A stretch of DNA of 51,474 nucleotides, taken from positions 1 to 51,474 of IMG/VR virus record IMGVR_UViG_3300024344_000022. One strand, given 5' to 3'. Position numbers and translations under genes: made by a program. Within the stretch, counting starts at the first letter, position 1. Every line of letters starts with the position of its first letter. This document shows positions 6,310 through 45,975 of this stretch, piece by piece. Under the pieces are notes generated by a model. That model ran no database searches. It saw only the letters and a list, made by a program, of their open reading frames with translations, and was not told the DNA's origin. Source of the stretch: a virus.

Positions 6310-6329
6310 TGATTTTTCCTATTCTCTCG

Positions 6330-6695: not shown

Positions 6696-6706
6696 TTTAT
6701 GCCTTT

Positions 6707-11321: not shown

Positions 11322-11330
11322 TCGCTAACT

Positions 11331-11978: not shown

Positions 11979-12047
11979 TGTTTTCTGCTTTCTTTTGTAA
12001 AAACGTGCAGCAGTAGTTTTACCCACTGCCACACGAAAAATTAAAGG

Positions 12048-12794
12048 TTACGGCAAATTCTGCAATACTACACCAGCGTAACCTGTAGTGTCTGGAGCAT
12101 ATGCAGCATAACCAACCAATGGTTCTGTTTCTGCATCTTTAGCATGAACTGCGCCAGTTACACCATCACTTAAGGTAAGGTTGTTACCAGCGGCAATGGT
12201 TCCATCTGCTAAGACAGTAGCAACACCGCGAGTCTGCACCCACCCGTAATAATTTACAGTAAACGATATTGGAGTAACACCGCAAACCACATAATCTGTG
12301 GCACTTGCACCAATAAGGTTATTCCATAAACCACCTGTAACGGCCACGTCAGTAGCAGTAGTTACAGCCACTTTTAAGCCGTCATACAAAGTAAATGTAA
12401 CTGCATTTGAACTTGCAGCAGTGCTTGACTTAATACGATACTGAAAACCTTCACCAGCATCATCGGTGGTATGAAGATAGCCACCAGCATACTGATTTAG
12501 CGTAGCCGATCCAACAGTACCCGAATCGGTGTATGTAACTTCAGTAGCACCAGCCGCTGCTGCCGTTAGCTTGTTATCGCTCTCAACAATAGCTGACACT
12601 GAAAGGTCTTGCGAAGTAAGCAATCCCTGTGCAGTAGCTGTGCTGAAATACGCATAACGAAACACACGACCATCAGACAACTCTAACTTTTCACCAACTC
12701 TATGTTTTGGCGTAGACGACTCTTCGTAGATGCTCTGACCGCCATCTCCTCCGATTCGATCCAACCCATAGTTGGCGTTTTGTATTGTACTCAT
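12048..12794 (-). CDS. Probable head decoration protein (copy A, 248 aa)
   Basis: A 248-residue, Ala/Thr/Gly-rich beta protein directly downstream of the major capsid gene. This is the usual place for a capsid decoration or stabilising protein. Recognisable features are GEKLELSDGRVFRYAYF near residue 35, the central GGYLHTTDDAGEG motif and a C-terminal AKDAETEPLVGYA. A strong ribosome-binding site (AAAGGAG) precedes the ATG. The homologue at 46712-47500 is 262 aa, with most differences in the first 30 residues. Assignment is by position and composition. Confidence 0.6.
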   Translation of the reverse strand: MSTIQNANYGLDRIGGDGGQSIYEESSTPKHRVGEKLELSDGRVFRYAYFSTATAQGLLTSQDLSVSAIVESDNKLTAAAAGATEVTYTDSGTVGSATLNQYAGGYLHTTDDAGEGFQYRIKSSTAASSNAVTFTLYDGLKVAVTTATDVAVTGGLWNNLIGASATDYVVCGVTPISFTVNYYGWVQTRGVATVLADGTIAAGNNLTLSDGVTGAVHAKDAETEPLVGYAAYAPDTTGYAGVVLQNLP

Positions 12795-12862
12795 TGTTCA
12801 TTCTCCTTTGTCCTTTTCTTCGGACTCGAAAGGCTCATTGGCTTGAACCTTGGAATTAACTA

Positions 12863-13849
12863 TTAACTGATACCAGTAATAACACCCTGGCGTCTACGGT
12901 TGTTCGTAACTACTTGCAGGCCAACAGTTATGAAGGCCACCTTAGCCAACTGGTTTGAATTTTCGCGGAATGGAGTCTTGCTAAAATTCATACCTGACTG
13001 CATGTGCATCTTCAAGTAATTGGTATTGAAGAAATACATACGACCCGATCCGCAGTCACGGTCATACTGCACCGGAATACCACGGAACGATGGCAAACGA
13101 CCATCTACGCCTGGTGAATCGTTACCCGAAAGACGCTGATAACCAGTGCCTTCAAATATCTCTTCAAACGAAGCATAAATAGAATTTGTGGTAAATATGT
13201 TTGTAGGCTGTTCATTGCCTTCGGACGTTGCATTCCAAAGGTTAGCCATACGAATCATACCTTCATAAAAGTTTGTTCCGGTAATCGTCTTAAATGACGT
13301 ATCGCCAGAAGCATCTTCCGTCTTGTTCTTCCACCACGTATTGCCAGCTACCGTAATACCACCCAACGTAGTTGGAGTCGTTCCCGGTGCGTCAGCAATG
13401 ATGTCTTGGAATCCTAACGGAGCCTTACCTGTCTGTGCAGAATACAACGAAGAGTTAATCTGATCGCGCAAGGTCAACATACTCTGACGAGTCTTGGCCT
13501 CTAATAGCGACATTGCTGCTTCGCGTTTGCGGTTTTCTTGCTCTTCGGTAAAGTTAATCGTAATAGGCACTGCGGCGTATCTAAACGGATAAAAAGCGGC
13601 CGTGATACCATCTACCGCATCTGTATTTAGCACGTCATAGCCCGAGAAATATTGCGCTGAGTTACCAGCATACAAAATATCTGCCTGTATTTCTTTGCCA
13701 CCATTATCGGTGACTAATGCTCCACCGGAGCGAAACATGTCTAAAGTTGGGTATGCGTCAAAAAAGTTATCGGTCAACTCTTTGCGTTTGGCCCGCATCG
13801 TAAGCGTCCAAGCCGCATCCCAGCTTTCTGAAGTTGTTGTTGCTGCCAT
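12863..13849 (-). CDS. Major capsid protein (copy A, 328 aa)
   Basis: A 328-residue protein between the scaffold and decoration genes. Features consistent with an HK97-fold capsid protein are a helical N-arm (residues 10-40), the FTEEQENRKREA spine-like helix near residue 100, and a C-terminal domain with IPVQYDRDCGSGRMYFFN and a final basic segment RRRQGVITGIS. The copy at 47568-48554 is about 95 percent identical by eye, and this is one of the most conserved genes between the modules. It is followed by a 68-nt gap before the decoration gene. Fold-level identity is inferred from size, order and pattern. Confidence 0.8.
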   Translation of the reverse strand: MAATTTSESWDAAWTLTMRAKRKELTDNFFDAYPTLDMFRSGGALVTDNGGKEIQADILYAGNSAQYFSGYDVLNTDAVDGITAAFYPFRYAAVPITINFTEEQENRKREAAMSLLEAKTRQSMLTLRDQINSSLYSAQTGKAPLGFQDIIADAPGTTPTTLGGITVAGNTWWKNKTEDASGDTSFKTITGTNFYEGMIRMANLWNATSEGNEQPTNIFTTNSIYASFEEIFEGTGYQRLSGNDSPGVDGRLPSFRGIPVQYDRDCGSGRMYFFNTNYLKMHMQSGMNFSKTPFRENSNQLAKVAFITVGLQVVTNNRRRQGVITGIS

Positions 13850-13862
13850 TTTCTATTTGTCC

Positions 13863-14732
13863 TTATTCAAAACCCAATTTGGAAAGACCCGACAATACAT
13901 CGGAGTCGCTAAGTGGGCCGTCTCCTTCCGTTGCATCAACACCTTGCGTACCACGAACAGACCTTTTTGAGGACTTTCGTGCGGAATTATTAGCTCCACG
14001 CAGATCAGACGCTTTTTGAGCGGTAATGCCTGCATGTAACTCATACGCCTCACGAACTGTATACGGACTTCCTGTAACAGGGTTAGTAATCTTTGTAGTA
14101 GCAACAATCTGATCGGTATAAGCGTCCAGATCACCACCATAAGCCTGCCTTGCTTCACCTACTTGGTTGGCTATATACGCAGTTTGCTGACCTTGCACAT
14201 AATTATTGGCCGTAGACAGCTGTTGTTGTAACTGCTGAACTTGACTGTTCAAGTTATTAACAACATTTCCTACCCTATGCTGAATAATCTGCTCAACGGC
14301 ATCTACGCCTCGAGCTTCATCTTCAGATAAGTTTGCCCTCATTGCATCTACAGGATCTACTTGTTGCTGTTGGGGTGTAACAAGGTTTTGCACCCTATTA
14401 GCCCATTCGCCCTGTTGCGCTTCAATCTGCCTGCGCTGTTCTGCAAGATCCTGTTGAGTCCTGGTAAACTGTGCCTGCATGTTTTTTGCAAGCGGAACTA
14501 ACGGCTGATACTGCTCCGGCACATCGTCTGCTGAACCACGCAACCAATCATGCCTTTGTGGGTCAAAATCTGACTGTGCATCAGAGTGTCCAGAGCTTTC
14601 TGACTGTGCCGAATCAAGGGTGTCATCTGTAAACAGTTCAAGAGAAGATTCTGTTGACTGATCCTGAGATGATCCTACATCGGGTGACGAGTCTTCCGCA
14701 CCGGAGTCCAAAGCGAGTACTGATTCAGACAT
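13863..14732 (-). CDS. Scaffold protein (copy A, 289 aa)
   Basis: A 289-residue protein immediately upstream of the capsid gene. It has an acidic Ser/Asp/Glu-rich N-terminus (residues 1-60), a central Gln-rich coiled coil (residues about 80-185, with runs such as LNSQVQQLQQQL) and a basic patch (SARKSSKRSVRGTQG) before a short helical tail LSGLSKLGFE. This build of acidic start, coiled-coil centre and basic capsid-binding end is standard for podovirus scaffolds. The copy at 48568-49437 has the same length and the same terminal motif. Confidence 0.75.
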   Translation of the reverse strand: MSESVLALDSGAEDSSPDVGSSQDQSTESSLELFTDDTLDSAQSESSGHSDAQSDFDPQRHDWLRGSADDVPEQYQPLVPLAKNMQAQFTRTQQDLAEQRRQIEAQQGEWANRVQNLVTPQQQQVDPVDAMRANLSEDEARGVDAVEQIIQHRVGNVVNNLNSQVQQLQQQLSTANNYVQGQQTAYIANQVGEARQAYGGDLDAYTDQIVATTKITNPVTGSPYTVREAYELHAGITAQKASDLRGANNSARKSSKRSVRGTQGVDATEGDGPLSDSDVLSGLSKLGFE

Positions 14733-14735
14733 TTA

Positions 14736-15134
14736 CTAATCTCCTTCGTTATATTTCTTCTTTGCCAGAGCCACTGCTTCTTCGGGTGTGTTACCAAACG
14801 AAGGAGTAGGGGTGTCTGACGAAGCAGAGTTTGCTACATCAGAGGTTATGTGACATCGAGAACCGCCAACTGCATCGGCACTTTCTCTCACGTTGTACTT
14901 TTTTAACAGTTCTTGTTTATGACTGTACGACTCTACAACCTGACCAAAGCCTGCATGAAACTTACCATACATATTGCTGTGTGAGTTATGGATGAAGTTG
15001 CTCTTTATAAACAACATGTTAGCATCTTTTTCACACTGGTCGCATTTGATCTTACGTTTAATATTATTAGAATCGTTTTGTATGTCAAGCTGACGATGTC
15101 CGTCTTCGCATTCGTAATCGTGAAATACCAGCAT
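14736..15134 (-). CDS. FmdB-like zinc-ribbon protein (copy A, 132 aa)
   Basis: A 132-residue protein starting MLVFHDYECEDGHRQ, with a second cysteine pair KCDQCEKDA about 25 residues later. Cys9 plus the Cys-x-x-Cys pair resemble one half of the FmdB-type zinc ribbons found in phage head modules. The remainder has a conserved SNFIHNSHSNMYGKF segment. It lies between scaffold and portal, as in many marine podovirus-like genomes. The copy at 49438-49839 is nearly identical. Metal binding is likely; the biological role is unknown. Confidence 0.6.
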   Translation of the reverse strand: MLVFHDYECEDGHRQLDIQNDSNNIKRKIKCDQCEKDANMLFIKSNFIHNSHSNMYGKFHAGFGQVVESYSHKQELLKKYNVRESADAVGGSRCHITSDVANSASSDTPTPSFGNTPEEAVALAKKKYNEGD

Positions 15135-15862
15135 TATTGACCTGTAGGCGGTTTATACATTTTTCTATCTGAATAAAATTGTTGGCGTGGATTTTGTTTT
15201 TTTATTTTTTTCATGAGTTGTGAAATATCATAGTCTGGAGATGCCATATTTTTTAACGCTTGTTTTTTAACTTCACTATATATTTGTTTTCCTGTCATTT
15301 GGTCATCAGGAAAATAATCGTCTGGTCTAATATCGTTTTCTTTCATTGCGCGTTCGGTGTGTATCCGCGCAATTAATTCTTTGTTTTTTTGTATAGTTTC
15401 TGGCGAAGTAGGTATAGCTTCTTTTGGTAATATGTTTCTCTCTTTTAAAGAGGCCGTGTCTTGACGAGTATACGTTATTCCTGATTTTGGATCAGTATAG
15501 TAAGCCTCTGGAGAAACACCTTCGCCTTTGCGTATTTGTTCATCAGATAAATCAATGCCTCTTATATTTAAATCATCATAAATTCCTGTTCTTAGTCGAT
15601 TTCCCGATTCAACCATCCCTGATCCTGTTGTTGCCATTGGATCAGATTGTCCAAAAGCCTGTCGCTCAATGCCTTCATACTCAGGATTTGGCACTAACTC
15701 TCTAAATTGTCCTCCATACTTTAACGCACTTTCATCTGTGTTTTTAGTAAGCCAATCAGGAATAGGCTTATCTCTGTAATGTATACGTGTGCCTTTAGAC
15801 TTTTGTTCTTTTGGCAAAGCCCCTCTAAGCTTTCTGCCAGCATCTTTTAGTGCGCCTAACAT
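15134..15862 (-). CDS. Hypothetical protein present only in copy A (242 aa)
   Basis: A 242-residue, lysine-rich, hydrophilic protein I do not recognise. It has no membrane segment and no catalytic motif. It is inserted exactly between the zinc-ribbon and portal genes: in the other module these two genes abut at 49839 with a shared stop-start, and here both junctions (15134 and 15862) keep a similar one-base overlap. The gene is visibly more AT-rich than its neighbours and has many AAA/TTT codons. It looks like a recently acquired cargo gene (moron) or a lost gene in the other strain. Some residues (PDWLTKNTDESALKYGG) recall small linker-type phage proteins, but no assignment is possible. Confidence 0.6.
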   Translation of the reverse strand: MLGALKDAGRKLRGALPKEQKSKGTRIHYRDKPIPDWLTKNTDESALKYGGQFRELVPNPEYEGIERQAFGQSDPMATTGSGMVESGNRLRTGIYDDLNIRGIDLSDEQIRKGEGVSPEAYYTDPKSGITYTRQDTASLKERNILPKEAIPTSPETIQKNKELIARIHTERAMKENDIRPDDYFPDDQMTGKQIYSEVKKQALKNMASPDYDISQLMKKIKKQNPRQQFYSDRKMYKPPTGQ

Positions 15863-17904
15863 TATCCTTGACCCGGTGCATTCTGTATAGCCTGAGAAAC
15901 TTCTTGAGCTTGGCTACGTACAAGTGACGTAATATTACCTTCCGCTACTCCGGCATTACTACCACCACCGCCACCAGCTTGAGGTGCTTGACCTTGAGCC
16001 ATTTGGTTCAGCATTTGCTGATGTTGCTGGATATGGTTTTGCACTACACCCATAACCTGCTGTTGTTGCTGTGGAAGTAATTGTTGAAACTGTGGAAGTT
16101 GTTGTATTTGCTGATGATACTGTATATGCAACTGATGATCTTCAAAAGGCGTAACCCCAGGATCACCGCCATTAATAAGATAGGCTACGTTTTCTAACTG
16201 AGCCGCTTTTACTGCATCGCCGTCTTCAGCGTTACCCAGATATTTGTCAGGGTCTTGCACACGGAAAGAAGCCAATAAACCTTTAATGGCTTCAATGCGG
16301 TTTATTTCTGGCAAGTTAATTGTCATGTTAAAAAGCTGTAGTGCATCCTGACGTTCAAGCTGTTCCGTCAACGGCTGCATACTACCAGCCTGTATTTCTA
16401 TTTTGTATCGTATCCGCAAAAGGTCTGCCGTAACTGCTTCAAAAACAGGATCTTCCGTGTCTTGAGCTACGTTAACCAAAAACTCATCAGGCAAATATCT
16501 TTCATCAGCCATCATACGCAATGAGTTACGAACAATAGACCGATACGCATCGGCTACACGCAACTGCATCCACTCGCGGTTTACTTGTGCAAAGCTTGCA
16601 GACAAACTTGCCTGTGTTGCCGTAACTCTTGGGCCACCCATTGCCATCTGCGATACGTTTAGACTTTGCTCTTCATAACTTTGTGCATCCGACTCTAAAC
16701 CCAACTGATCTGGTGGAGGGTTACCAAAGTTCATTTCACGCATACTGGTATTGGGATCTTCTACCCATATGATCTCACCGTCACGACCGTTTTCTAACGT
16801 ATCGCCAATGTCCTGATTTGCTTCACGTTCTCTTCGAGAAGCTAAAACTACACGTTGGAAACGCTTTAACAGATCGGCTCTGCGTGATACAGACTCTACT
16901 ATAAGTGACTGTGTATCCTCAACATACGCCATTGGAGGTTCGCCATAAAACGAACGTTCGGTCTGATCAAACCGCAGTGCGTGGTATGGAAAACCACCAT
17001 CCATCAGGTATCCACCGGCAGGCTCAAACTCGCCTGTCATCATTTGTTCGCCAGTAAAAGGATCAGTCTCTGTAATTGGTTTCATTGCCAAAAACGGATG
17101 ATCTACTTCTTCAATAGGTTCATCCAATCCTTCGGCAAACGTAATACGCTTTTTATGCAGACGGTCATGCACTTCATACAAACAAACCATCTGACCCTGT
17201 TTAGAATGCTGCACCGCATTGTATTCATCGCTATGCTCAGAGTCTTGCATATCGTATATAAACGAATCAGCCTGATCTTCATCTGACATCGCTTTTATCT
17301 GCCGTCTGTTTTTAAACCTGTCATCCTCTTTAACAAACTCTAAAGGAACCATCATTTTTTCAATGATATACCGTGCGCCTGACAATTTGTGCGGAGGAGT
17401 AAGCGGATCAATGTATATATTAAAAGGCGAAACTCGATGTACGTAAGGAAAATCGTTTTCCTGAGCATCGTTAATAGTATACGGTGCAACAATATCGTCA
17501 TCACCCGGAGGGTTATATCCAAACTTTAACCAACCTACACTACAAAACAGCGCATCAAAAATAACCTGCTGCACTTCTCTTTTGGCATTCATCTGTTCTA
17601 ATGTAGCATTAGCCACACGTTCCAGTATTTCAGCCGCAAAGTCTCTACCAGGTTCCTCAACTTTAAAAAAAACATGAGGATAATTAAAAGAAACACTGGC
17701 TATGATCTGACGGGCGAGTGGATACATACGGGATATTTTAACAATCTTATCCTCGTCAAGGTTTGGAACGTCAAAATCAAGCTCATATGTCTTGAGAAGC
17801 CTACGCCACGTTTTGTGGCGCGTCTTCATGTATTTTCGACCGTCCTCTATAGCTCCACGCCAGTATTCGATCTGTCTTTCTTTCAAACTATTTGCCTTTG
17901 CCAC
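15862..17904 (-). CDS. Portal protein (copy A, 680 aa)
   Basis: A 680-residue portal. The N-terminus contains a basic helical region (RHKTWRRLLKTYEL), then conserved phrases typical of long podovirus portals: PLARQIIASVSFNYP, SVGWLKFGYNP and HRVSPFNIYIDP. There is a long helical barrel-type C-terminus that is Gln-rich (residues about 600-640), followed by a Gly linker. The start is GTG at 17904-17902, since the frame reads GTG-GCA-AAG and no ATG is available. It overlaps the 39-aa gene upstream by 17 nt. The copy at the right end is 5-prime truncated. It would form the dodecameric DNA channel and bind terminase. Confidence 0.85.
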   Translation of the reverse strand: MAKANSLKERQIEYWRGAIEDGRKYMKTRHKTWRRLLKTYELDFDVPNLDEDKIVKISRMYPLARQIIASVSFNYPHVFFKVEEPGRDFAAEILERVANATLEQMNAKREVQQVIFDALFCSVGWLKFGYNPPGDDDIVAPYTINDAQENDFPYVHRVSPFNIYIDPLTPPHKLSGARYIIEKMMVPLEFVKEDDRFKNRRQIKAMSDEDQADSFIYDMQDSEHSDEYNAVQHSKQGQMVCLYEVHDRLHKKRITFAEGLDEPIEEVDHPFLAMKPITETDPFTGEQMMTGEFEPAGGYLMDGGFPYHALRFDQTERSFYGEPPMAYVEDTQSLIVESVSRRADLLKRFQRVVLASRREREANQDIGDTLENGRDGEIIWVEDPNTSMREMNFGNPPPDQLGLESDAQSYEEQSLNVSQMAMGGPRVTATQASLSASFAQVNREWMQLRVADAYRSIVRNSLRMMADERYLPDEFLVNVAQDTEDPVFEAVTADLLRIRYKIEIQAGSMQPLTEQLERQDALQLFNMTINLPEINRIEAIKGLLASFRVQDPDKYLGNAEDGDAVKAAQLENVAYLINGGDPGVTPFEDHQLHIQYHQQIQQLPQFQQLLPQQQQQVMGVVQNHIQQHQQMLNQMAQGQAPQAGGGGGSNAGVAEGNITSLVRSQAQEVSQAIQNAPGQG

Positions 17905-18007
17905 CCTTTTTAAGGTTGTCTGACCCAGCAGCTTTTGGCGTTACACGAGTACCTTTTTTGCCACGGTTTGGCTTAGTCGTTGTTGGCGTACCGTTAAAAC
18001 CTTGCAT
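17888..18007 (-). CDS. 39-aa basic protein between terminase and portal
   Basis: A short gene with start ATG at 18007, a strong ribosome-binding site (AAGGAGA about 7 nt upstream) and stop TAG at 17888. The product begins MQGFNGTPTTTKPNRGKKG and is rich in Lys, Gly and Thr. It has no hydrophobic segment and is probably disordered. It fits the 118-nt space between the large terminase (ends 18023) and portal (starts 17904), overlapping the portal start by 17 nt. The good ribosome-binding site and tight fit argue for a real gene. The function is unknown. Confidence 0.6.
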   Translation of the reverse strand: MQGFNGTPTTTKPNRGKKGTRVTPKAAGSDNLKKGGKGK

Positions 18008-18022
18008 ATTTTTATCTCCTTG

Positions 18023-19402
18023 TTATGCTGAAGCGTATCGTCCTTTGCGAACACCCCAACCTTGTTCCATCATATCAATAACTTCTTGTCCGGTTCCTTC
18101 GTAAGGTCTTTCTTCTTCTGGTTTATGCGGTTTATACACATGCATCATCGCATAACGTAATTCATCTGCTGCGTGGTCTTCTGCGTGAGTGTCTAAATCC
18201 TCTGGATTCTTAGAGCTTCTTGGCAAGGCCGGCATCGTCCTGACCAAAGCATCGTTCCATCCATTAAAGCAATAAAAGCGTTCTTTTATCAACGCATCGT
18301 TGACCACTCTCCATCCAGTAATACGGTCATTGTTCGCTCTTGTCAAGTACAATCCTCGCTCGGCAAACACATCCGCAGGCGAATGGTTGATCACTTCACT
18401 TAACCTTCTTTTAACAAACATACTTGGATCGCAATACGTTGCCTGTGGATAACGACCGCCCGTAAACGGACAACTTTCTATCATTTTTACTATATTATCG
18501 GCATGTTGCGAAGCCGTAGCGTTTGCTTGGTAATACTCACTAATGCGATAGATATTCCCATCATAGTCCACAGTGTATAGACCATAAGACGTTGGAGCAG
18601 CTTCGCCATAATCCATCCCTCCAAACAAAGGCCAATGGTCAGGTATCTCAAAACTGTTCACAAGTACTTGTTTTTCATGCCAGTTAGTAAAATACTGACC
18701 TACAAAACTATCCCAATCGCCCTCTAACCATGCTTTAACCAGTTGTTCATCGCCTACACCTTCTAACCGTTTAATATATCCAGGATCTCGATCCAGCAAT
18801 ATTTTGTTGTCTGTCACCAAACTGCGAATATACATACGGTTCATACCGTCATCGCCTTCAATAACAGAAGACTCTTCTCCGGCATCAATGTAATAATCTT
18901 TTACGTTGTTATGGTTTGGGCCACCGGGGTTGCCCGATGCACGTATACGTTTTGTCGGAACCTCCGCAGCACCTGTACGTAAACAAGCCTTTAGCTTATG
19001 ATACGCTTTCATGTCGTTCCAGCTTGTAAGCTCATCCCATCCAATCCAAGTATACTGCTGACCTTGAAAATGGTCTGCATCCGCTTCGTTTTCTAAGTGT
19101 CGGAGCTTTAAATTGGAGCCATTTTTAAATATCCACTGGTGTGTACCCACCTTATATTCCGCATCAGGGTATGCAGCACGAAAAATCTGGCGAGAACGGT
19201 CAATAATCTCGTCCAACTCAGGGTAAGTGCGCCTAATCAGCACCCCTTTCCAATGTTCACCGTAGGTATCTACGTCCGAAAGGAAGTCTCCAAGCAAAAA
19301 TTCTGACTTTCCACCACCACGCGCACCGCCAAAAAACAATTCATCAACAAAAGATGCTCGAATTGCTTTTTCTTGCGGTCCAGGTTGCGGCATCCAAGTC
19401 AT
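18023..19402 (-). CDS. terL: Terminase large subunit (459 aa)
   Basis: A 459-residue DNA-packaging motor. Residues 25-33 (GGARGGGKS) are the Walker A loop and residues about 118-124 (TWIGWDE) the Walker B motif with its catalytic Glu. RASGNPGGPNH near residue 155 fits motif C. The nuclease half begins around residue 245 (FGGMDYGE), with further acidic residues in TYCDPS and in HAEDHAADELRYA at the end. The length and motifs fit the Terminase_6/17-like group. The start ATG at 19402 overlaps the preceding 52-aa gene as ATGA. Only this copy of the gene is in the window, because the second module ends inside its portal. Confidence 0.93.
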   Translation of the reverse strand: MTWMPQPGPQEKAIRASFVDELFFGGARGGGKSEFLLGDFLSDVDTYGEHWKGVLIRRTYPELDEIIDRSRQIFRAAYPDAEYKVGTHQWIFKNGSNLKLRHLENEADADHFQGQQYTWIGWDELTSWNDMKAYHKLKACLRTGAAEVPTKRIRASGNPGGPNHNNVKDYYIDAGEESSVIEGDDGMNRMYIRSLVTDNKILLDRDPGYIKRLEGVGDEQLVKAWLEGDWDSFVGQYFTNWHEKQVLVNSFEIPDHWPLFGGMDYGEAAPTSYGLYTVDYDGNIYRISEYYQANATASQHADNIVKMIESCPFTGGRYPQATYCDPSMFVKRRLSEVINHSPADVFAERGLYLTRANNDRITGWRVVNDALIKERFYCFNGWNDALVRTMPALPRSSKNPEDLDTHAEDHAADELRYAMMHVYKPHKPEEERPYEGTGQEVIDMMEQGWGVRKGRYASA

Positions 19403-19557
19403 TTGGCTTTAACCTTGATCTTTTTAGGTTTTGCAACCGGAACACTACGCCAATCTTTGTTTTCTCGGTGCAAACTACCCCAATTATGCACAATTTTAGC
19501 TACTCTACTGTCTGTAGGGTATATTTTGGGTTGATATGCTTGTTCTTCAAGTTTCAT
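19399..19557 (-). CDS. 52-aa basic protein between terminase subunits
   Basis: A small open frame starting MKLEEQAYQPKIYPTD at 19557 and ending with a Lys-rich tail (KPKKIKVKAK). Its stop overlaps the large-terminase start as ATGA, and its start overlaps the end of the small-terminase gene by 11 nt. It therefore fills the 144-nt gap between them completely. The SRVAKIVHNWGSLHRENKDWRS centre looks like a folded helix pair. Function unknown; an accessory of packaging is possible from position. Confidence 0.6.
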   Translation of the reverse strand: MKLEEQAYQPKIYPTDSRVAKIVHNWGSLHRENKDWRSVPVAKPKKIKVKAK

Positions 19558-20014
19558 CAGAAGTTTCCACTGTGTATGTTGTTTCTACCGCTTGATCCAT
19601 CTTGTTATTCTGTTTTAACCACTCATCGTAACTTTCAGCCCTTGGAGGCACATTCAATCCCTTAACCTCAACGGTATGCTCAACCTGTATGCGGTGATCA
19701 CCTACTTCTTCACGTAACTCCTTTAAAACCTTTAACTTAAGTGCTACTCGCCTGTCTTCAATCTTATGATACAACTCCTCTAAAGCTAACACCCTGTTTT
19801 TACGCCAAGCTAAAGGCACATCGTCAAAATTAGACCGATCCCGTTCAATCTCTTTCTTTAACGCTTTGTCAAATTCTGCATTCTTACGCCAGCGATAAAT
19901 CGTACCCCGATCCACTTCAAGCGTTTTAGCCACCTTGTCGTTTGCCCTGGAAGGATTCCACCTATCCAACACAATCAACTGCACTGCCTGTTGCTGTAAA
20001 TCACTTAATGCCAT
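19547..20014 (-). CDS. terS: Terminase small subunit (155 aa)
   Basis: A DNA-recognition subunit of packaging. It has an N-terminal helix-turn-helix (residues about 24-45: NDKVAKTLEVDRGTIYRWRK) and a charged coiled-coil centre with ALEELYHKIEDRRVALKLKV. The C-terminus is flexible. The ATG at 20014 is chosen over 20026 because GGAG lies 6 nt before it and it forms a TGATG overlap with the peptidase stop. It precedes terL in the same operon with a 52-aa gene between. The HTH-plus-coiled-coil design and position support the call; sequence is more variable in this family than in terL. Confidence 0.8.
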   Translation of the reverse strand: MALSDLQQQAVQLIVLDRWNPSRANDKVAKTLEVDRGTIYRWRKNAEFDKALKKEIERDRSNFDDVPLAWRKNRVLALEELYHKIEDRRVALKLKVLKELREEVGDHRIQVEHTVEVKGLNVPPRAESYDEWLKQNNKMDQAVETTYTVETSDET

Positions 20015-25337: not shown

Positions 25338-25614
25338 GATGACTAAAAAACGCAGACTTTTAGCCCAACATTGTCTTGATCTCCAGAGTCGCAAAAGCCA
25401 TCCAGACGGACGCTGTGACAATGGTGGTCGTTGGTATCCTGATAGCCAATTTGATTGCTGCATAGGCATCCGTGAACCATCCAGAGCCTACCCATGGAGT
25501 ATGATGGCTCATTGTCGAACCGTAGACCATGTAGCACACCAACACAAGATTGAACCGCAGATTTTACGCAAGTTAGTCAATAGACTAAAAAAGGAGATCG
25601 CTTTTAATGAGTAA
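25330..25614 (+). CDS. Cys/His-rich early protein (94 aa)
   Basis: The ATG at 25330 is used because an in-frame upstream start would lie deep in the previous gene. The product has Cys in QHCLD, GRCDN, FDCCIG and AHCRT plus several His, a pattern that suggests zinc binding. The C-terminus is a basic helix (RKLVNRLKKEIAF). It overlaps the methyltransferase start by 8 nt and may be translated with it. No named family is recognised. Confidence 0.55.
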   Translation: MIRMTKKRRLLAQHCLDLQSRKSHPDGRCDNGGRWYPDSQFDCCIGIREPSRAYPWSMMAHCRTVDHVAHQHKIEPQILRKLVNRLKKEIAFNE

Positions 25615-26848
25615 AATTTACTACAATGAGATTGAACCGTTCGCCTGTTTTTGGTTGGAGAATCTTATGAGGGATGGATTCATTGCTGAGGGTCAAATTG
25701 ATAACAGGTCGATCAGAGATATTCAGCCCGAAGATTTAGAAGGATATACTCAGTGTCATTTTTTCGCAGGGATTGGCGTATGGTCGTATGCACTACGACA
25801 GGCAGGGTGGTCAGACGATAGGCCAATCTGGACGGGATCGTGTCCGTGCCAACCATTTTCACAAGCAGGTTTACACAAAGGAGATACAGATGACAGACAC
25901 TTATGGCCAGACTTCCACCGCCTCATCAAAGAGTGCAGACCTTCAACGATCACTGGAGAAATGGTTAGTGGCAAAGGTGGATTCCAATTCATCGATTTGC
26001 TACAAACAAACTTGGAGGAGGAAAACTACTCCACAACAGCGGTCGGTCTTGGAGCACACAGCGCAGGCACCACGCACTCCCAAGGGTTCCACAAAAGACA
26101 ACGACTCTACTGGGTCGCTGAAGACTTGGGCGACTCCGCTGAGGTCGGACGGGGGCGGTGGGCCAAGGAATGTGGAGATTATAAATGGAAGAGCGGTGAG
26201 AGTGTCCAAGGAAACGGGAATGCAATTCGGAATCAATCTGGCAGACGAGTCGAAACTGACAGTGGGATCTTGGATAACCCCAACGACCAAAGGATACGAA
26301 GTGGGAGAGAGCTTTTGGAAGGAGGCCAAGCGACAGATACAGAGGGGCAAGCCATGCCTACTGGCTCAAGTGTCAACGTCAGTGTGGCCAACACCAACAG
26401 CGTCCGACAAAAAAGTCTCAAGGAGAACGACAACCGACAAACAAAAGTGGATGAATCCAAACGATCCACAGCACACAGCACACACGATGTTGGATGTAGC
26501 GACTCTATCAGTCTGGCCGACACCCACAGCCAGAGATCACAAGGATTCGGGCAAAAATCTGAGCAACAGCAACACACGGAGGGACGGCAAAACGAGATTG
26601 GACACGGTTCCACGGATCGCCAACATAGCGGATCAGACCATCAGAATGACTCAGGATGGAATTACGATCTCATCTGGTGTAGAGATCAAAAGTGGCGTCC
26701 AGTTGAATGTGGAACATTCCCGATGGCTGATGCAGTTACCAACAGGATACATATCCTCAAGGCTCTTGGAAACGCCATTCCAGCGGATACGGCAAAAATC
26801 TTCATAGAGAGCTACATGGAGTCTGTGGTCGATAGATACGGTGATTAA
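25607..26848 (+). CDS. DNA (cytosine-5) methyltransferase (413 aa)
   Basis: A C5-cytosine methyltransferase transferring a methyl group from S-adenosylmethionine. Residues 51-68 (HFFAGIGVWSYALRQAGW) are motif I, and GSCPCQPFSQAG with Cys81 is catalytic motif IV. GEMV at 117-120 stands for the ENV motif VI with its Glu kept, and KRQRLYWVA (163-171) is motif VIII. The C-terminal part has KWRPVECGTFP and GNAIP (388-392), matching motifs IX-X. Residues about 175-350 are low-complexity and hydrophilic, with LDNPNDQR, VANTNSVRQ and LADTHSQR phrases. This is the stretch where a second gene lies in another frame. It may protect phage DNA against restriction or mark it for regulation; no partner endonuclease is seen. 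Confidence 0.88.
   Translation: MSKIYYNEIEPFACFWLENLMRDGFIAEGQIDNRSIRDIQPEDLEGYTQCHFFAGIGVWSYALRQAGWSDDRPIWTGSCPCQPFSQAGLHKGDTDDRHLWPDFHRLIKECRPSTITGEMVSGKGGFQFIDLLQTNLEEENYSTTAVGLGAHSAGTTHSQGFHKRQRLYWVAEDLGDSAEVGRGRWAKECGDYKWKSGESVQGNGNAIRNQSGRRVETDSGILDNPNDQRIRSGRELLEGGQATDTEGQAMPTGSSVNVSVANTNSVRQKSLKENDNRQTKVDESKRSTAHSTHDVGCSDSISLADTHSQRSQGFGQKSEQQQHTEGRQNEIGHGSTDRQHSGSDHQNDSGWNYDLIWCRDQKWRPVECGTFPMADAVTNRIHILKALGNAIPADTAKIFIESYMESVVDRYGD
25890..26807 (+). CDS. Nested overlapping gene: WPTPTARD-type phage protein (305 aa)
   Basis: This frame lies wholly inside the methyltransferase gene, shifted by one base (+2 relative phase). Its ATG at 25890 has an ideal AAAGGAG (25877-25883) 6 nt upstream. 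The product starts MTDTYGQTSTASSKSADLQ. It then has repeated WATPLRSD, WITPTT, WPTPTASD and WPTPTARDHKDSG phrases, and ends with LNVEHSRWLMQLPTGY. I recognise this pattern from proteins annotated near phage C5-methyltransferases (TPTARDxKD plus SRWLMGxPxxW). Those hallmarks are too specific for a chance frame. The WPTPTARD phrase is read from the same DNA as LADTHSQR of the methyltransferase. Function is unknown; a link to methylation is suggested by co-occurrence only. Confidence 0.75.
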   Translation: MTDTYGQTSTASSKSADLQRSLEKWLVAKVDSNSSICYKQTWRRKTTPQQRSVLEHTAQAPRTPKGSTKDNDSTGSLKTWATPLRSDGGGGPRNVEIINGRAVRVSKETGMQFGINLADESKLTVGSWITPTTKGYEVGESFWKEAKRQIQRGKPCLLAQVSTSVWPTPTASDKKVSRRTTTDKQKWMNPNDPQHTAHTMLDVATLSVWPTPTARDHKDSGKNLSNSNTRRDGKTRLDTVPRIANIADQTIRMTQDGITISSGVEIKSGVQLNVEHSRWLMQLPTGYISSRLLETPFQRIRQKSS

Positions 26849-30909: not shown

Positions 30910-31333
30910 ATTACCCATATTGATGACAAAAGAAGTTTCTAAAATGTTTAATATTCCAATGCGTACGATTAAGTATTACACAGAATTAGGTCTTGTCAAC
31001 TTAGCGAACCATAACCCAGGCATTGGGAACAGTAGGCGATACAGCATCCATAATATGATAAACATTTTACTCGCATTTAGATTGGATAATTTGGGAGTAA
31101 AACCGCCAGTGCTTGCACTTAAAGCAGAGCAACTTAATTTAGGCATCTCTAAATATTTGGAGAATCCAAAAACCGCCTCTCGCTATATGTCTATCTGGAT
31201 CACATCGGATATGGAGACAAAAGTATCGTGGCACACCAGCACAAATTTTCCTTACTCTGCGTCTATTTTGATGGATTTAGCAAGTTTACATCACGAAGTT
31301 GAAAGAACACTTTCAGCGAGTATGGTGACATGA
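30902..31333 (+). CDS. MerR-type DNA-binding protein (143 aa)
   Basis: The ATG at 30902 (MHKLPILMTKEVSKMF) is chosen because an upstream in-frame start would lie inside the 71-aa gene. Residues about 8-75 match a MerR winged helix-turn-helix: TKEVSKMFNIPMRTIKYYTE, then GLVNL and a SRRYSIHNMINILLAFRL wing region. The C-terminal half has no clear effector domain. It may regulate early genes or the lysis-lysogeny choice. It overlaps the next gene as ATGA. Confidence 0.75.
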   Translation: MHKLPILMTKEVSKMFNIPMRTIKYYTELGLVNLANHNPGIGNSRRYSIHNMINILLAFRLDNLGVKPPVLALKAEQLNLGISKYLENPKTASRYMSIWITSDMETKVSWHTSTNFPYSASILMDLASLHHEVERTLSASMVT

Positions 31334-32061
31334 TAGGACATGCGGACACATATGACGAGGCGGTAGCTTTGATTAATAAATTAGAGCTACCTTCCGGCAC
31401 GAAGATGGCAATGAAGAAGGACATTAAATACGGTTGGACTTGGGCTGCCATGAACCCAGGATTGCTCCGTAACAAAAAGAAAGATTTACCTCGATTTACG
31501 CTACAAACCCTAAACGATGATTACATCCATATAAGCAACCAGTGTCTACAGGAGATGGCCAACCATGCCAGAGGACGAGTACGGTCAACCGATAAAAGAA
31601 TTAAAGATTATAAAAGAGGAACCTCCAAAAATCTCGCACCTGCTCAAATTGCACAAAATGTTTCCCGAGGACATCCCAGACGATCCCAGAGAGAGCAATA
31701 TGACTATGCTCTGGGCTTGCAAAAGTATTTCGAGGATGCTGGATATGGGCGAACCGAGGTCATCACCCAAGATACAATCGTTACTGAGTTTGATCGACTT
31801 GGAGCTACACTGGATGCGGAGAAACAAACAAGAGATCGAGCAGAAGCTGAAAAACAGACCAGAGGTAGCGATACGATACGAGAAACGGGGCAAAGCTCCG
31901 ATAGAGTTGCCGACATCAGTATATCAGAGACTGAGAGACGTGGGCCTGAGCTACAATCACGACACTCAGTTGTGGTCAGGTTGGCAAACGGACGAGATGG
32001 TTATTACCGCAAACGAATTACTATCCACGCAGGGAAGGCTGTTTTAGATGGTGACTTATGA
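31330..32061 (+). CDS. Hypothetical protein overlapping another frame (243 aa)
   Basis: A 243-residue frame coupled to the MerR gene by ATGA. The first 80 residues look natural (MIGHADTYDEAVALINKLEL, then KDIKYGWTWAAMNPGLL). From about residue 80 it is dominated by Arg, Thr, Ser and Glu and shares its DNA with the frame at 31565-32047. Either the last 160 codons are a by-product that happens to stay open, or two genes overlap. A frameshift joining the first 80 codons to the other frame is the third option. Function unknown. Confidence 0.5.
   Translation: MIGHADTYDEAVALINKLELPSGTKMAMKKDIKYGWTWAAMNPGLLRNKKKDLPRFTLQTLNDDYIHISNQCLQEMANHARGRVRSTDKRIKDYKRGTSKNLAPAQIAQNVSRGHPRRSQREQYDYALGLQKYFEDAGYGRTEVITQDTIVTEFDRLGATLDAEKQTRDRAEAEKQTRGSDTIRETGQSSDRVADISISETERRGPELQSRHSVVVRLANGRDGYYRKRITIHAGKAVLDGDL
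31565..32047 (+). CDS. Hypothetical protein in overlapping frame (160 aa)
   Basis: Starts at ATG 31565 (MPEDEYGQPIKELKIIKEE) with GGAG 10 nt upstream, and overlaps the 243-aa frame throughout. The sequence has a natural balance of hydrophobic and charged residues (MTMLWACKSISRMLDMG, LLSLIDLELHWMRRNK), and its codons look like those of neighbouring genes. I regard this as the better supported of the two frames in this interval. Function unknown. Confidence 0.6.
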   Translation: MPEDEYGQPIKELKIIKEEPPKISHLLKLHKMFPEDIPDDPRESNMTMLWACKSISRMLDMGEPRSSPKIQSLLSLIDLELHWMRRNKQEIEQKLKNRPEVAIRYEKRGKAPIELPTSVYQRLRDVGLSYNHDTQLWSGWQTDEMVITANELLSTQGRLF

Positions 32062-34601: not shown

Positions 34602-37468
34602 TACGCCTCGAGTGCTGTTATACGTGCTTTTGCAGAATCTAATTCTGCTTTAAGTTCTTTAACTGCATTAACCAATGCCCATTTAATTTCGCCACCGTCA
34701 AATGTTCTAAGATCCGTAGTTTCGTTTGCATCACTATCATTAATTTTGGCAGAAAAATGAGAAACCGTATTCGGAAAAACCTGCTCAACTTCTTGAGCTA
34801 CAAGGCCAACATAGGTTTTGCCATCAGCGTTGGTTTTTCCTTTACCGTTATATTGGTAATTAACTGGCCTTACGTTTGAGTTGCATAGCTCATCAAGACC
34901 AAGTGTATATTCGCTTACTACTGTTTTTAAACGTGAATCTGATGTCGCTGCCCAATCTCCACCCGATGGCTTTTTAGGTGTAGACGTTCCTACATTAAAT
35001 GCACTGCCACCAGTGGCATAAAAATCAGCATTACCATCAGAATCCCAATATGCAAGCGTAGTCCATGTGATAGTTCCGTCGGCTGATCCTGACGCTGCGC
35101 CATACCATGTGTGCGTTCCAGATTGTTGCCGATAGCGTGACGCATTGCCATTGCCGATATATTTATAAGCTGCCGAATCGTAATAAACATTTGACCACCA
35201 TTCAGAATTAGTAGCATGTCCATCCTCGCCACCGATAAACATTTTGTCGCTTTGGACACCTGTGAAGGTCGTATCGAAACTTGCGGCTGCTCCATCGGTG
35301 GAAAGAATTTTGTCATCGTATCGAAGGTTTGCTTCGCCGGCTATTGCGTTAGCACCCGTCACGGTTGGAATGGTTGTGGCCGTCGAGCCTGTTAATGTTG
35401 CGCCAGCACTAACCGCTGACCACTCCGGAATAGAAGAACCTTGTTTTAAGAAATGTCCGTTTGTGCCAGCACCCAGCCGTGCTAAAAATCCAGAACTGTT
35501 TCGGTAGTAAATATCGCCAGTGGCATCACTTCCTACTGCAAGTCCATAATTAGTTAAAATCATGTCATCAGCAGACTCGTCAAAAAGCACCGATGATCCA
35601 GATGTTGCGCCAAAAAACTTTACGTCATGTCCGGTGTCGTCTACCCCAACCGTCACCGTGCTATCAATCTGAACAGCAGCATTTACGTCAAGCCCAACGT
35701 CAAACTTGATCGCTTCACTACTGTTAGTCGTAACAAATGTCATGTAGGCATTATCAGCTTCTTCAACGACTAATGACGTTGCGCTGTTATCCAGGATTTT
35801 AATTGAGCTTGCTGCCGAGAATCGTAATGCACCGTCAGCACCGGCAGATAGCGTAAGATCGCCAGATATGTCCACATCTGCATCTACATCCATGGAGGCG
35901 TTTATATCTAACGACTTATCAAACTTAATAGCCTCACTACTGTTGGTGGTAACAAATGTCATGTAAGCATTGTCAGCTTCTTCAAAAACCAAAGAAGTGG
36001 CACTGTTATCAAGTATCTTAATTGAGCTTGCAGCACTAAAACGCAACGCTCCATCTGCTCCAGCAGAAAGCGTAAGATCACCTGCTATGTCTACCGCTCC
36101 AGAAAAGTCACCCGTAGCTGCATCGACCTCACCGGATAGTGTCAGGTTGCCCACACCTGTAACATTACTGGAGTCGTCTACGGCCACTGCACTATTAGCC
36201 TGTACAGTGCTTCCACCAGTTCCGTTCGCAGTAATTATTATATTGTCGGTGCTTCCAGTACTGCCAGTTATGTCGCCACCGGACGCAGCAGCCCAAGAAG
36301 GAATGCCCGAATCTAGCGTTAATACATGGCCGTTTGACCCAGCCGCTAAACGTGCGAGGTATCCACTTGAGTTGCGGTAGTATACGTCGCCTGTAGCGTC
36401 CGATCCTACAGCTAATCCGAAATTGGTAAAAATTACATCATCGGCAGATTCATCAATCAGCACACTTGATCCGCTTGTAGCTCCAAAAAACTTGACATCG
36501 TAACCGGTATCATCGACTCCAACCGTGATCGTTCCGTCTATCTGCATAGCTGCATCTATGTCCATAGCAGCGTTTATATCGAGTGCCTTGTCAAACTTTA
36601 CAGCCTCAGAACTGTTGGTCGTGACAAAGGTCATATAGGCATTATCGGCCTCTTCTACTACCAGTGAGGCTGCACTGTTGTCGAGAATTTTAATTGAGCT
36701 TGCGGCTGAAAAACGTAATGCTCCATCTGCCCCAGCCGACAACGTGAGATCGCCAGATATGTCTGCATTGCCGTTTACGTCTAATGAGCCAAAGTCACCT
36801 TCACCGGCTACCGTAATACCAGCGGCTCCATCTAATACGGTTAGTCCTACCGCATCGCCGTTGTCCGTAAACTTTAAATCTTTACCGTTAGTTATCAGCT
36901 TAATTGTGACATCGCCTGAGTTGCCTTCTGTGATGCTTAAAACAGAAGATCCGGCATCTTTAAAGGTGAACACGCCAGTATGTGCATCGAGCGTTAGAGC
37001 GTCTCCTGAGTCGATAACAATAGGGTTACCGGCTAACGTAGCGCCTGTAGTTCCATCGTGTGTAATCGTAAAATCAGAGCCAGCACCTAACGACAATACA
37101 GCCGAATCGCTTAACAGTTTCAGATCGTCACCGATGATCGCGTCCAGTGCTACAGATAATCCACCGTCCGTTTGTAACGCCCCATCGGTTGTTGATGTAG
37201 CATTCGTTGTATTGTCTGTTTTAAGCAACCCTGATACGGTTAGGTTGTTCACCTGGTTTGATGCAGACGTATCGTCGAGGTCACGGCTTGAATCGACAAC
37301 CAGTGCTTTTGATGCCGAAACGACTCCGGCGGTAACCCCTAGATTCGTCGCATCCAAGCCTCCATTGACCGCGCTACTGGTCAGAAGGTTATCGAACTCG
37401 TTATTGAGTTGCGCCGCTGTTAAAACCGCGCCTGATGAAAATGTATGTACCCTTGATACAGTACCCAT
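34601..37468 (-). CDS. Tail fibre with S74 chaperone domain (955 aa)
   Basis: A full-length fibre. Residues 1-60 form the attachment part (MGSVSRVHTFSSGAVLTAAQ). Residues about 100-690 are Ser/Asp/Gly-rich beta repeats, with at least three near-identical copies of a block containing DGALRFSAASSIKILDNSA and YMTFVTTNSSEA. A region with TGSTATTIPTV and a Trp/Tyr-rich part follow. From residue 843, SDSRLK then YVGLVAQEVEQVFP are the hallmarks of an S74 intramolecular chaperone; Ser843 and Lys848 fit the self-cleaving Ser/Lys pair. This domain helps trimer folding and is cut off. The last 20 residues are a coiled coil. It should bind the host surface. Confidence 0.88.
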   Translation of the reverse strand: MGTVSRVHTFSSGAVLTAAQLNNEFDNLLTSSAVNGGLDATNLGVTAGVVSASKALVVDSSRDLDDTSASNQVNNLTVSGLLKTDNTTNATSTTDGALQTDGGLSVALDAIIGDDLKLLSDSAVLSLGAGSDFTITHDGTTGATLAGNPIVIDSGDALTLDAHTGVFTFKDAGSSVLSITEGNSGDVTIKLITNGKDLKFTDNGDAVGLTVLDGAAGITVAGEGDFGSLDVNGNADISGDLTLSAGADGALRFSAASSIKILDNSAASLVVEEADNAYMTFVTTNSSEAVKFDKALDINAAMDIDAAMQIDGTITVGVDDTGYDVKFFGATSGSSVLIDESADDVIFTNFGLAVGSDATGDVYYRNSSGYLARLAAGSNGHVLTLDSGIPSWAAASGGDITGSTGSTDNIIITANGTGGSTVQANSAVAVDDSSNVTGVGNLTLSGEVDAATGDFSGAVDIAGDLTLSAGADGALRFSAASSIKILDNSATSLVFEEADNAYMTFVTTNSSEAIKFDKSLDINASMDVDADVDISGDLTLSAGADGALRFSAASSIKILDNSATSLVVEEADNAYMTFVTTNSSEAIKFDVGLDVNAAVQIDSTVTVGVDDTGHDVKFFGATSGSSVLFDESADDMILTNYGLAVGSDATGDIYYRNSSGFLARLGAGTNGHFLKQGSSIPEWSAVSAGATLTGSTATTIPTVTGANAIAGEANLRYDDKILSTDGAAASFDTTFTGVQSDKMFIGGEDGHATNSEWWSNVYYDSAAYKYIGNGNASRYRQQSGTHTWYGAASGSADGTITWTTLAYWDSDGNADFYATGGSAFNVGTSTPKKPSGGDWAATSDSRLKTVVSEYTLGLDELCNSNVRPVNYQYNGKGKTNADGKTYVGLVAQEVEQVFPNTVSHFSAKINDSDANETTDLRTFDGGEIKWALVNAVKELKAELDSAKARITALEA
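35482..35608. repeat. 127-nt exact direct repeat, right copy
   Basis: Identical to bases 1-127. It lies within the complete fibre gene at the point where the left copy is cut. Upstream of it (toward 34601) there is no left-hand counterpart in the window. Confidence 0.95.
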
Positions 37469-39513
37469 TAGTTTTGCCCTTTTTCTAAGTCTTCGATCAT
37501 TTGTGCCAACTCTGCATCTTCATTAAGGCGCTCTATTAACTGACCCAATGTTACCCCTTCAAGTGCAACTTTATTTATACCCGTCTTTTTACCAATTGCC
37601 TGTACTTGTTTTACGAGATTACGAGCCGTACGAGTTGCATCTTCTAATCTCATGCCACCTTCAACTAAGCGTGGCACAATCGCACCAATAGCGCGTGGAC
37701 TAAACAGAAGGATGGCCGGCGTTGAAAATACTGTAGTAGCAATTCCAGTTCCGAAACGTGTTATATTATCTGCAATGTTTCGTCCTATTTGTGATATTTC
37801 AGATTTTACAACAAGACCGCTACCGAAAAGAGGATTAAACGCTGAACCTACCAACGAGGCTATCAAGTCTCCGCTTCCACCGGACTCTCTGGCAACACGC
37901 TCAAATTGATCAAGGTTAAGTAGCTCGTCCGGGCTGTCTGCAAGCGCAGACGCTAAACTGCCATAAGCATTTTTTCCGGTCTTAAGGTCTGCAACTTCAA
38001 CTGCTTTTCTTGGGTCAATGCTGAACACTTCATCGGCTGCATCCAACACCTTCATTTTGTCAGCATAACTACGCATCAACTCGCCGTGTGCGCCCTCTGT
38101 GGCTTGGTTTAATTTTTCAGCAATTTGGTCGTGAACCCTTGTCAGATAGCGCTTCGCACTACGCGCCTTATCGTCGTAGGCAATGTTATTTATTTCATCT
38201 TTTAACTGCTTCTTCAGTGCGTCTAAATACTGCACATCCATAACCTTTACTTCTTTAACCATTTTAGGAACAAACTGTGCAGGTGCTTTATATACCAGTT
38301 CTTCTGATTCAACTATTTTGTCAATATATTTTTCGCCTTCAAGATTTATTATTTTATTTAAAATTCCATCAATCTTCTTTTGTGTTTCTTCTGCTATTTT
38401 AGTTTTACCGTATGGAAAATCTATGGTTGCTTTACTTACCCCAAGATCATCTACTGCACCAACATTTACTGTTGCACCTGACCCGTCTAACGCTCTGGTA
38501 ACAATGTTCCGTAAGTCTGTTAGTATTACTTCATTGTTTTTTCCAAGAGGTTGATCGTATAGGCCATTATCCTTCATCATCTGTTGAGCAGCCTCGTAAT
38601 CTTTATTTGCCTGTTCTCTTATCTTCTTATGATCTTTTATGTATTTATCTACAACACGCAATCGACCCGTTGTCTTGTCTTTTCTAAAGTCACGTATTAC
38701 GTTGCCTTTACCTTCGCCTACATAGCGTCGCAATCTTTCTAAAGCAGTCTGACTTGTGCCGGTAGTAAACCCAAGAACACTATCAAAAACTTGCCCAAAC
38801 GCATCTCTTAGACGCGGTTTAGTTTTAGTCGCTGCACCGGTATCTTCGGCCATTGACGCTACCTTCTCACCGGCTTTAGAAACCTTACCCCTTACGCCTC
38901 TGTATAATGCGCCTGTTCCTTTTGCCGCAGCCGTTACCGGATCAATAACGTCGGCTGCCTTACCAAGCGTCGATAACAATTTAGATGCTCTTGGAGCAGT
39001 TCTTGCTAACGCTGCACCACCGCCTGTAAGCGGCAATGTTGCCAATGATGCAAGGTTGACTAAAGATCGAACTGGACGCTCTTCTACGTTTTTTATTTCC
39101 TCACCAAACTGACCGGCCATTTGGCGCACCATTTCAGCACGACGCGGATCACGCGGTTCATACAGCGAACCAAGCACTTTCTCTCCGGCTATATCAGCAG
39201 TTCCTTCGAGCGCCATTCCTATACCCGAAACAGCCTGACCCGGATCACTTATCACTTCACCAAGCGCACTAAACTCTTCGCCGGCTGTTTCCATAATATC
39301 ACCGGGTATTTTTTGAGCCGTTCGACCCAAGCGAGCTAAGAAACTTTGATCTTTGCCCCCTAACAGCTTTTCCATCCTCGCCAATTCTGCATCTGAAAAC
39401 TGTTGTGACTCGACGCGGTCTTCTGCAAGCGGAACTTGCTGCTCTTGTTCCTCTGGCTGACTGTCGCCTAACAACAGCGCCATGCGCCGACGTTGTTTTT
39501 CATTATATGCCAT
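37468..39513 (-). CDS. Large internal virion protein (copy B, 681 aa)
   Basis: A 681-residue counterpart of the 977-aa protein of the left module, about 300 residues shorter and only weakly similar. The start MAYNEKQRRRMALLLGDSQP is followed by a region of Ala/Gly-rich helices (LVNLASLATLPLTGGGAALA), a long charged helical middle and a hydrophobic stretch near 570-610 (GIATTVFSTPAILLF). It overlaps its neighbours at both ends by one base (37468 and 39513). Position and composition fit an ejected core protein. It shows that this locus is exchanged or evolves fast between related phages. Confidence 0.7.
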   Translation of the reverse strand: MAYNEKQRRRMALLLGDSQPEEQEQQVPLAEDRVESQQFSDAELARMEKLLGGKDQSFLARLGRTAQKIPGDIMETAGEEFSALGEVISDPGQAVSGIGMALEGTADIAGEKVLGSLYEPRDPRRAEMVRQMAGQFGEEIKNVEERPVRSLVNLASLATLPLTGGGAALARTAPRASKLLSTLGKAADVIDPVTAAAKGTGALYRGVRGKVSKAGEKVASMAEDTGAATKTKPRLRDAFGQVFDSVLGFTTGTSQTALERLRRYVGEGKGNVIRDFRKDKTTGRLRVVDKYIKDHKKIREQANKDYEAAQQMMKDNGLYDQPLGKNNEVILTDLRNIVTRALDGSGATVNVGAVDDLGVSKATIDFPYGKTKIAEETQKKIDGILNKIINLEGEKYIDKIVESEELVYKAPAQFVPKMVKEVKVMDVQYLDALKKQLKDEINNIAYDDKARSAKRYLTRVHDQIAEKLNQATEGAHGELMRSYADKMKVLDAADEVFSIDPRKAVEVADLKTGKNAYGSLASALADSPDELLNLDQFERVARESGGSGDLIASLVGSAFNPLFGSGLVVKSEISQIGRNIADNITRFGTGIATTVFSTPAILLFSPRAIGAIVPRLVEGGMRLEDATRTARNLVKQVQAIGKKTGINKVALEGVTLGQLIERLNEDAELAQMIEDLEKGQN

Positions 39514-41036: not shown

Positions 41037-41051
41037 TATGTTTTCCTGTTT

Positions 41052-41339: not shown

Positions 41340-41350
41340 TTTATGCTCCT

Positions 41351-45968: not shown

Positions 45969-45975
45969 GCTAACC

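Follow-up and report, generated by a model that had tools for sequence, protein, structure and literature searches.

The beta polypeptide of M.EcoHK31I, a cytosine-C5 DNA methyltransferase (C5-MTase), was reportedly found by Lee, Kam and Shaw in 1995 to be encoded within alpha in another reading frame, and both polypeptides are said to be required for activity in vitro. In the multispecific C5-MTases of Bacillus phages, the recognition domains lie between motifs VIII and IX. Those of phages SPR, phi3T, SPbeta and H2 have several recognition domains in tandem and several targets (PMC8936443). M.AquI, a C5-MTase, occurs naturally as two polypeptides, the split lying in the variable region, and in M.EcoHK31I the larger subunit holds motifs I to VIII, motif X and a predicted target recognition domain (TRD), motif IX being on the smaller subunit (PMC3404938). 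In the C5-MTases of solved structure, the small domain consists of the TRD and motif IX, and the large domain of motifs I to VIII and part of motif X (PMC5944983). Splits between motif VIII and the TRD, natural as well as artificial, complement (PMC3404938, PMC5944983). Here we analyze a locus of the IMG/VR virus record IMGVR_UViG_3300024344_000022, a viral contig of 51.5 kb (51,474 nucleotides, the whole of which is called the window below), in which two open reading frames (ORFs), alpha and beta, are both read on the + strand of one DNA segment.

We propose that this segment encodes a single C5-MTase as a heterodimer, alpha being the catalytic polypeptide and beta the small domain with its modules and motif IX, and we put the probability of this reading at about 85%. 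The alpha ORF runs from ATG 25607 to 26848 (413 amino acids, aa). Nested in it, in the +1 frame, beta runs from ATG 25890 to a stop at 26807 (305 aa), with a Shine-Dalgarno (SD)-like AAAGGAG at 25877-25883, 6 nt upstream of its ATG. An earlier reading of the letters alone (the sequence-only reading) had placed both ORFs at these positions, beta at +1 behind AAAGGAG, and had remarked that LADTHSQR of alpha and WPTPTARD of beta are written on one set of bases. Both points hold exactly, the two strings occupying 26513-26536 and 26514-26537, with an offset of 1 nt. The features of the locus are listed here with the evidence on which each assignment rests.

25607-26848, + strand: alpha, predicted C5-cytosine methyltransferase large-domain polypeptide, 413 aa, with motifs I to VIII, a neutral linker and motif X (PF00145, phrog_363, alignment A2)
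25760-25810, + strand: alpha motif I region, FFAGIGVWSYALRQAGW (sequence, alignment A2)
25835-25870, + strand: alpha catalytic motif IV, GSCPCQPFSQAG (sequence, alignment A2)
25877-25883, + strand: SD-like AAAGGAG of beta (sequence; family-wide enrichment of SD plus start in +1)
25890-26807, + strand: beta, predicted small-domain and recognition polypeptide, 305 aa, at +1 inside alpha (phrog_1008, phrog_31772; phase; substitution pattern)
25932-26078, + strand: predicted N-terminal helix and beta-hairpin of beta (SADLQRSL...AQAPRT), over alpha motifs V to VIII (AlphaFold2; constraint in both frames)
26096-26119, + strand: alpha motif VIII, RQRLYWVA (sequence, alignment A2)
26127-26270, + strand: beta module 1, WATPLRSDGGGG... 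(modular repeat)
26271-26384, + strand: beta module 2, WITPTTKGYEVG... (pairwise alignment with the relative L002)
26385-26513, + strand: beta module 3, WPTPTASDKKV... (modular repeat)
26514-26650, + strand: beta module 4, WPTPTARDHKDSG..., on the same bases as alpha LADTHSQR..., its 3' end being approximate (modular repeat)
26703-26750, + strand: beta motif IX-like segment, LNVEHSRWLMQLPTGY (hhalign to one-frame actinophage enzymes, E 4.3e-7; 9 invariant columns in alignment A1)
26753-26782, + strand: alpha motif X, ILKALGNAIP (GNA invariant in A2)

Residues 75 to 186 of alpha match PF00145 (E 3.5e-10, above the cut-off), no further region of alpha being matched, and phrog_363 is matched over the full length (E 1.3e-56). 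Motifs I, IV (PCQ), VI and VIII of the C5-MTases are all present in alpha, and the family alignment A2 has invariant columns at motif I, CQPFS and GE. Motif X is present as well (LKALGNAIP, with GNA invariant in A2), and motif IX is absent from the alpha polypeptide, both in its sequence and in A2. The sequence-only reading had credited alpha with motifs I, IV, VI, VIII, IX and X; this list stands (motif VI being GEMV) except for motif IX, since the motif IX-like segment sits near the C-terminus of beta, directly before the bases of alpha motif X. Beta matches phrog_1008 (E 1.4e-22) and phrog_31772 (E 6e-15), both of which are labeled DNA methyltransferase. An apparent intein (CFPAG...VVHN/C) was observed in the alpha of EBPR siphovirus 2 (L017, 84-2579), where it is inserted into motif IV, immediately ahead of the catalytic Cys; beta begins downstream of this insertion.

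Related loci were sampled from named phages, from viral contigs via alpha and, separately, via beta, and from bacterial genomes via beta. Beta lies exactly at +1 inside an alpha ORF reaching motif X in 257 of the 265 loci holding both parts, a sample that favors good matches, because the search took the best 80 by rank, and in which rare degenerate loci are under-represented. The hosts of these loci include Proteobacteria, Planctomycetes, a Bacteroidetes metagenome-assembled genome (MAG) and a Kiritimatiellae MAG. The question of a family-wide overlap in one phase, raised in the sequence-only reading, is thus answered in the affirmative on homologues. The exceptions to the phase are the actinophage enzymes L023-L025, with motifs IX and X in the alpha frame, a locus (L240) in which a frame shift has joined motifs I to VIII of alpha to the modules and motif IX of beta, and four alphas with one nonsense codon each, beta being intact. 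Among the loci found through beta (L029-L108 and L188-L267), the fusion L240 and the four nonsense-bearing alphas are the sole departures. A standalone beta without alpha was ruled out, alpha being found in the -1 frame or fused at every one of these beta-seeded loci. In L240 (2455-3561, Klebsiella michiganensis), the fusion is natural and single-framed, motif X being left in another frame. At L039 (2169-2457), a stop codon falls inside the catalytic motif (PC-stop-PF), the alpha frame being otherwise intact and beta intact; sequencing error, pseudogene and readthrough are the alternatives here.

When two ORFs of a bacterium or a bacterial virus overlap at length on the same strand, the overlap is usually written off as an artifact, and annotation programs report just one of the two frames. 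For a Paenibacillus phage, the public record annotates both frames, likewise at +1. Most other public records of these loci annotate alpha only, and those of ZS04 (L014) and phiKX2 (L018) have part of the beta frame only, alpha being missed altogether. In Edwardsiella phage eiAU (L009, 1607-3031), the beta frame continues free of stops into the gene that follows, for which the annotation gives a second DNA methyltransferase; this is possibly a natural fusion or a case of translational coupling.

With the +1 offset, beta codons have their third base at position 1 of the alpha codons. When the window is compared with L002, its nearest relative, the linker substitutions at alpha positions 1/2/3 number 24/6/10. 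Over 89 disjoint close pairs, the shares of alpha positions 1/2/3 are.20/.17/.64 before beta,.33/.22/.45 across motifs IV to VIII,.57/.25/.18 in the linker and.42/.23/.35 at motif IX, a regional shift with a chi-square of 1660 (p 3e-140 for position 1 versus position 3). The majority of changes moves from the third position of alpha to the third position of beta, which indicates that beta is a translated and selected protein. Read as constraint, these shares point to alpha only at the 5' end, to both frames in motifs IV to VIII and at motif IX, and almost exclusively to beta in the linker. Third positions of alpha change in the linker at 0.29 times the rate seen before beta. The alpha first-position rate there (0.351) approximates the silent rate at the 5' end (0.385), which argues that the alpha linker evolves nearly neutrally. 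These linker shares also support the earlier idea that the linker of the enzyme is loose owing to the constraint on the other frame.

The question arises as to what beta does. A group of actinophage enzymes (L268-L297) combines in one chain, and in this order, motifs I to VIII, LPTP modules, motif IX (EWMMGWPAGW) and motif X. As profiles from the PDB and Pfam did not detect motif IX in beta, the link was made via these one-frame enzymes: the beta profile aligns to their modules and motif IX (hhalign, probability 92.7, E 4.3e-7), and the alpha profile to their motifs I to VIII (E 1e-18). For one of the one-frame enzymes, the AlphaFold2 model has high confidence over the core and over motifs IX and X, and it matches M.HhaI and M.HaeIII. 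This profile homology to the two halves of the one-frame enzymes, taken with the domain layout of the solved structures, suggests that alpha and beta correspond to the two domains of one enzyme. The sequence-only reading had seen two protein families in two frames; both frames appear real, and the unrelated partner is what has to be given up, beta matching the part of this enzyme that alpha lacks, with recognition and motif IX. In L268-L297 we also observed that the 5' half of the one-frame enzyme is overlapped by a +1 ORF, which has at least one LPTP module but lacks motif IX. This ORF displays +1-frame selection after motif VIII (.56/.21/.22), and its stop is mostly a TAG placed precisely three codons upstream of an in-frame LLPTP module.

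Several results weigh against the assignment of beta to the small domain. Beta has no match among the Pfam models (nor among those of NCBIfam), and its sequence profile matched none of the solved C5-MTases in the PDB. Its AlphaFold2 model, made for beta alone, is poor (mean predicted local distance difference test, pLDDT, 64.7; predicted template modeling score, pTM, 0.24) and has no significant match in the PDB. The modules of the one-frame enzyme were modeled with a pLDDT near 20-30, so that a recognition fold is unsupported there; because they are not resolved in this model, it is from their position that we infer their folding as recognition domains. Beta could be dual-coded but independent, for example a DNA-binding regulator or an anti-restriction factor, and no subunit of alpha. 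It has a folded N-terminal helix-hairpin of its own (residues 11-60, pLDDT mostly 72-93 in AlphaFold2), and the actinophage +1 ORF, with modules and no motif IX, is selected beside a complete one-frame enzyme. However, motif IX is missing from alpha and carried by beta, the modules and motif IX share homology with the C-terminal half that the one-frame enzymes have in frame, a natural fusion exists in L240, and alpha is present at every beta-seeded locus. We therefore regard an independent beta as unlikely.

A second scenario is that the locus works mainly by frameshift fusion, a +1 slip after motif VIII joining the catalytic part to the modules and motif IX in one chain. Such a joined chain is viable, as the one-frame actinophage enzymes and L240 show. 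However, the +1 constraint begins at alpha codons 80-90, well ahead of motif VIII and at the place where SD plus start sites peak. Such sites (6 nt or more) are enriched in the +1 frame, 35.9% of loci having one as opposed to 7.9% of shuffles, and they cluster at alpha codons 35/36 and 90-92, ATG 25890 of the window belonging to the second cluster. Moreover, the N-terminal part of beta folds confidently in AlphaFold2, and a single slip would lose motif X. A role of this kind for frameshifting seems to us more improbable again than an independent beta.

In the homologues, stops in the second frame do not occur at the level of chance: of 226 unique loci, 225 have a +1 linker free of stops, against 75.7 expected from synonymous shuffling of the alpha codons, although, the loci being related to one another, these counts do not represent independent events. 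All 54 loci of the alpha-seeded subset likewise have an open +1 linker, and the +2 frame of the linker is open in just 5 of the 226. Conversely, synonymous shuffles that preserve beta are expected to leave alpha open in only 28 of 225 loci, a comparison in which the openness of alpha is partly a selection criterion of the locus set (five depart among the beta-seeded loci). In the window itself, the entire +1 overlap remains open in 0.14% of shuffles when alpha is kept and synonymous codons are shuffled, and the alpha linker in 0.4% when beta is kept. That more than 900 bp are dual-coding, as first proposed, has accordingly withstood a selection test, both in these open-frame nulls and in the linker shares (57% at alpha position 1 and 18% at position 3, versus 20% and 64% before beta). 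An untranslated +1 frame kept open by chance, codon bias or shared ancestry, to which the inheritance of open frames by relatives and the partial mirroring of conserved alpha codons by beta over motifs V to VIII would lend themselves, is rejected by both shuffle nulls, the SD enrichment, the inverted substitution periodicity of the linker (one-frame actinophage genes, as a control, have normal frame-0 periodicity from the +1 stop to motif X) and the conserved modules that are senseless in alpha, and we give it practically no credence.

The middle of beta is modular. Family-wide, 480 internal modules could be counted, with a median length of 36 aa (interquartile range 32-39), and they form 214 clusters at 60% identity. 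The slot of a common cluster varies, as does its left neighbor, of which there are up to nine, and 20 pairs of loci with near-identical N-terminal parts differ in module number. Between the window and L002, the difference is one 120-bp module (26258-26377), which is missing in L002 and is in register for both frames. Pseudomonas phages 5399 and Haboob (L011 and L019) are another such pair, with a difference of one module. Beta thus contains tandem exchangeable modules, varying in order and number, that lie between motifs VIII and IX, a position taken from the one-frame homologues. The recognition-type modules appear to sit in beta, not in alpha; they would recognize DNA, presumably with one target per module.

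If the heterodimer reading is correct, alpha, translated in frame 0, would provide the large domain, with binding of S-adenosylmethionine, the catalytic PCQ, motif VIII and motif X. Beta, the translation of which would begin at a separate +1 start site within alpha, would provide the small domain, consisting of the N-terminal helix-hairpin, the WPTPTARD-type modules as target recognition units, and motif IX. Once expressed, the two proteins would associate into an active enzyme methylating the phage's own DNA, most likely against host restriction; from expression to anti-restriction, we infer these steps. Between motifs VIII and X, the alpha frame would just traverse the beta cassettes, and would only have to avoid stops and hold its frame. 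Gain or loss of a whole cassette could then alter the target sites and leave both frames unbroken. A wider proposal, which we make tentatively and rate at somewhat less than even odds, is that beta serves as a specificity subunit that can be exchanged, each cassette having one target, such that phages carry a large, shuffled cassette library in the alternative frame and the catalytic frame is a neutral carrier; in the actinophages, cassettes would be held in both frames of one gene, giving two sets of specificities.

If this wider proposal is true, the family of dual-coded enzymes, both halves of which come from the same DNA, would be a very large one. An overlap of roughly 900 bp recurs in hundreds of phages and prophages, and selection is handed measurably from one frame to the other along it. 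The loci offer a natural series for the evolution of overlapping genes and for the splitting of a two-domain enzyme between two frames. Should every module read a single target, the cassettes would amount to a testable code for the specificity of phage DNA methylation. Many of the phage proteins annotated as methyltransferases may be only half of an enzyme, a possible explanation for clones that are inactive and for fragments with a wrong annotation.

Two other features of the window were noted. A block of structural genes occurs twice, at 1-20000 and 35480-51474, the copies being 82-93% identical and lying about 34-35.7 kb apart. Probably the contig goes round a genome of ~35 kb and joins two strain variants, rather than representing one genome with two structural blocks. 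In addition, same-strand ORFs overlap in different frames at 31330-32061 (243 aa) and 31565-32047 (160 aa); the 160-aa ORF looks genuine, and the tail of the 243-aa ORF may be spurious.

With respect to known systems, M.EcoHK31I is the precedent, known since 1995. No published description of a family-wide overlap was found in the open literature, most subscription journals lying outside the search. Compared by published description, the likeness to M.EcoHK31I and M.EaeI lies in a large polypeptide with motifs I to VIII and X and a small one with motif IX. A nested small-subunit ORF in another frame, seen here in 257 of 265 loci, is also said to exist in M.EcoHK31I. A Klebsiella aerogenes plasmid, considered as a possible EaeI-like relative, proved to carry a phage region with fragmented genes, and no restriction enzyme was noted among the neighboring ORFs of the window. 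The TRD of M.EcoHK31I is predicted in alpha, whereas here the recognition-type modules appear to be in beta and the alpha linker seems near neutral; moreover, beta is longer and modular here, and is found in hundreds of phages and prophages. In M.AquI, the small subunit consists of the distal variable region with motifs IX and X, whereas here alpha retains motif X, and the same DNA serves both ORFs. The multispecific enzymes of Bacillus phages are one chain read in one frame, whereas the modules described here are on a second polypeptide, in an overlapping frame. One further group is homologous to both of our ORFs: the one-frame actinophage enzymes with LPTP modules (for example WillSterrel, L024, and L268-L297) are related to motifs I to VIII of alpha and to the modules and motif IX of beta, and they form a single chain, yet are overlapped by a +1 module ORF without motif IX. 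What is new here is the scale, the shuffled cassettes of about 36 aa borne by beta, and a linker that, by its substitution pattern, serves as their neutral carrier.
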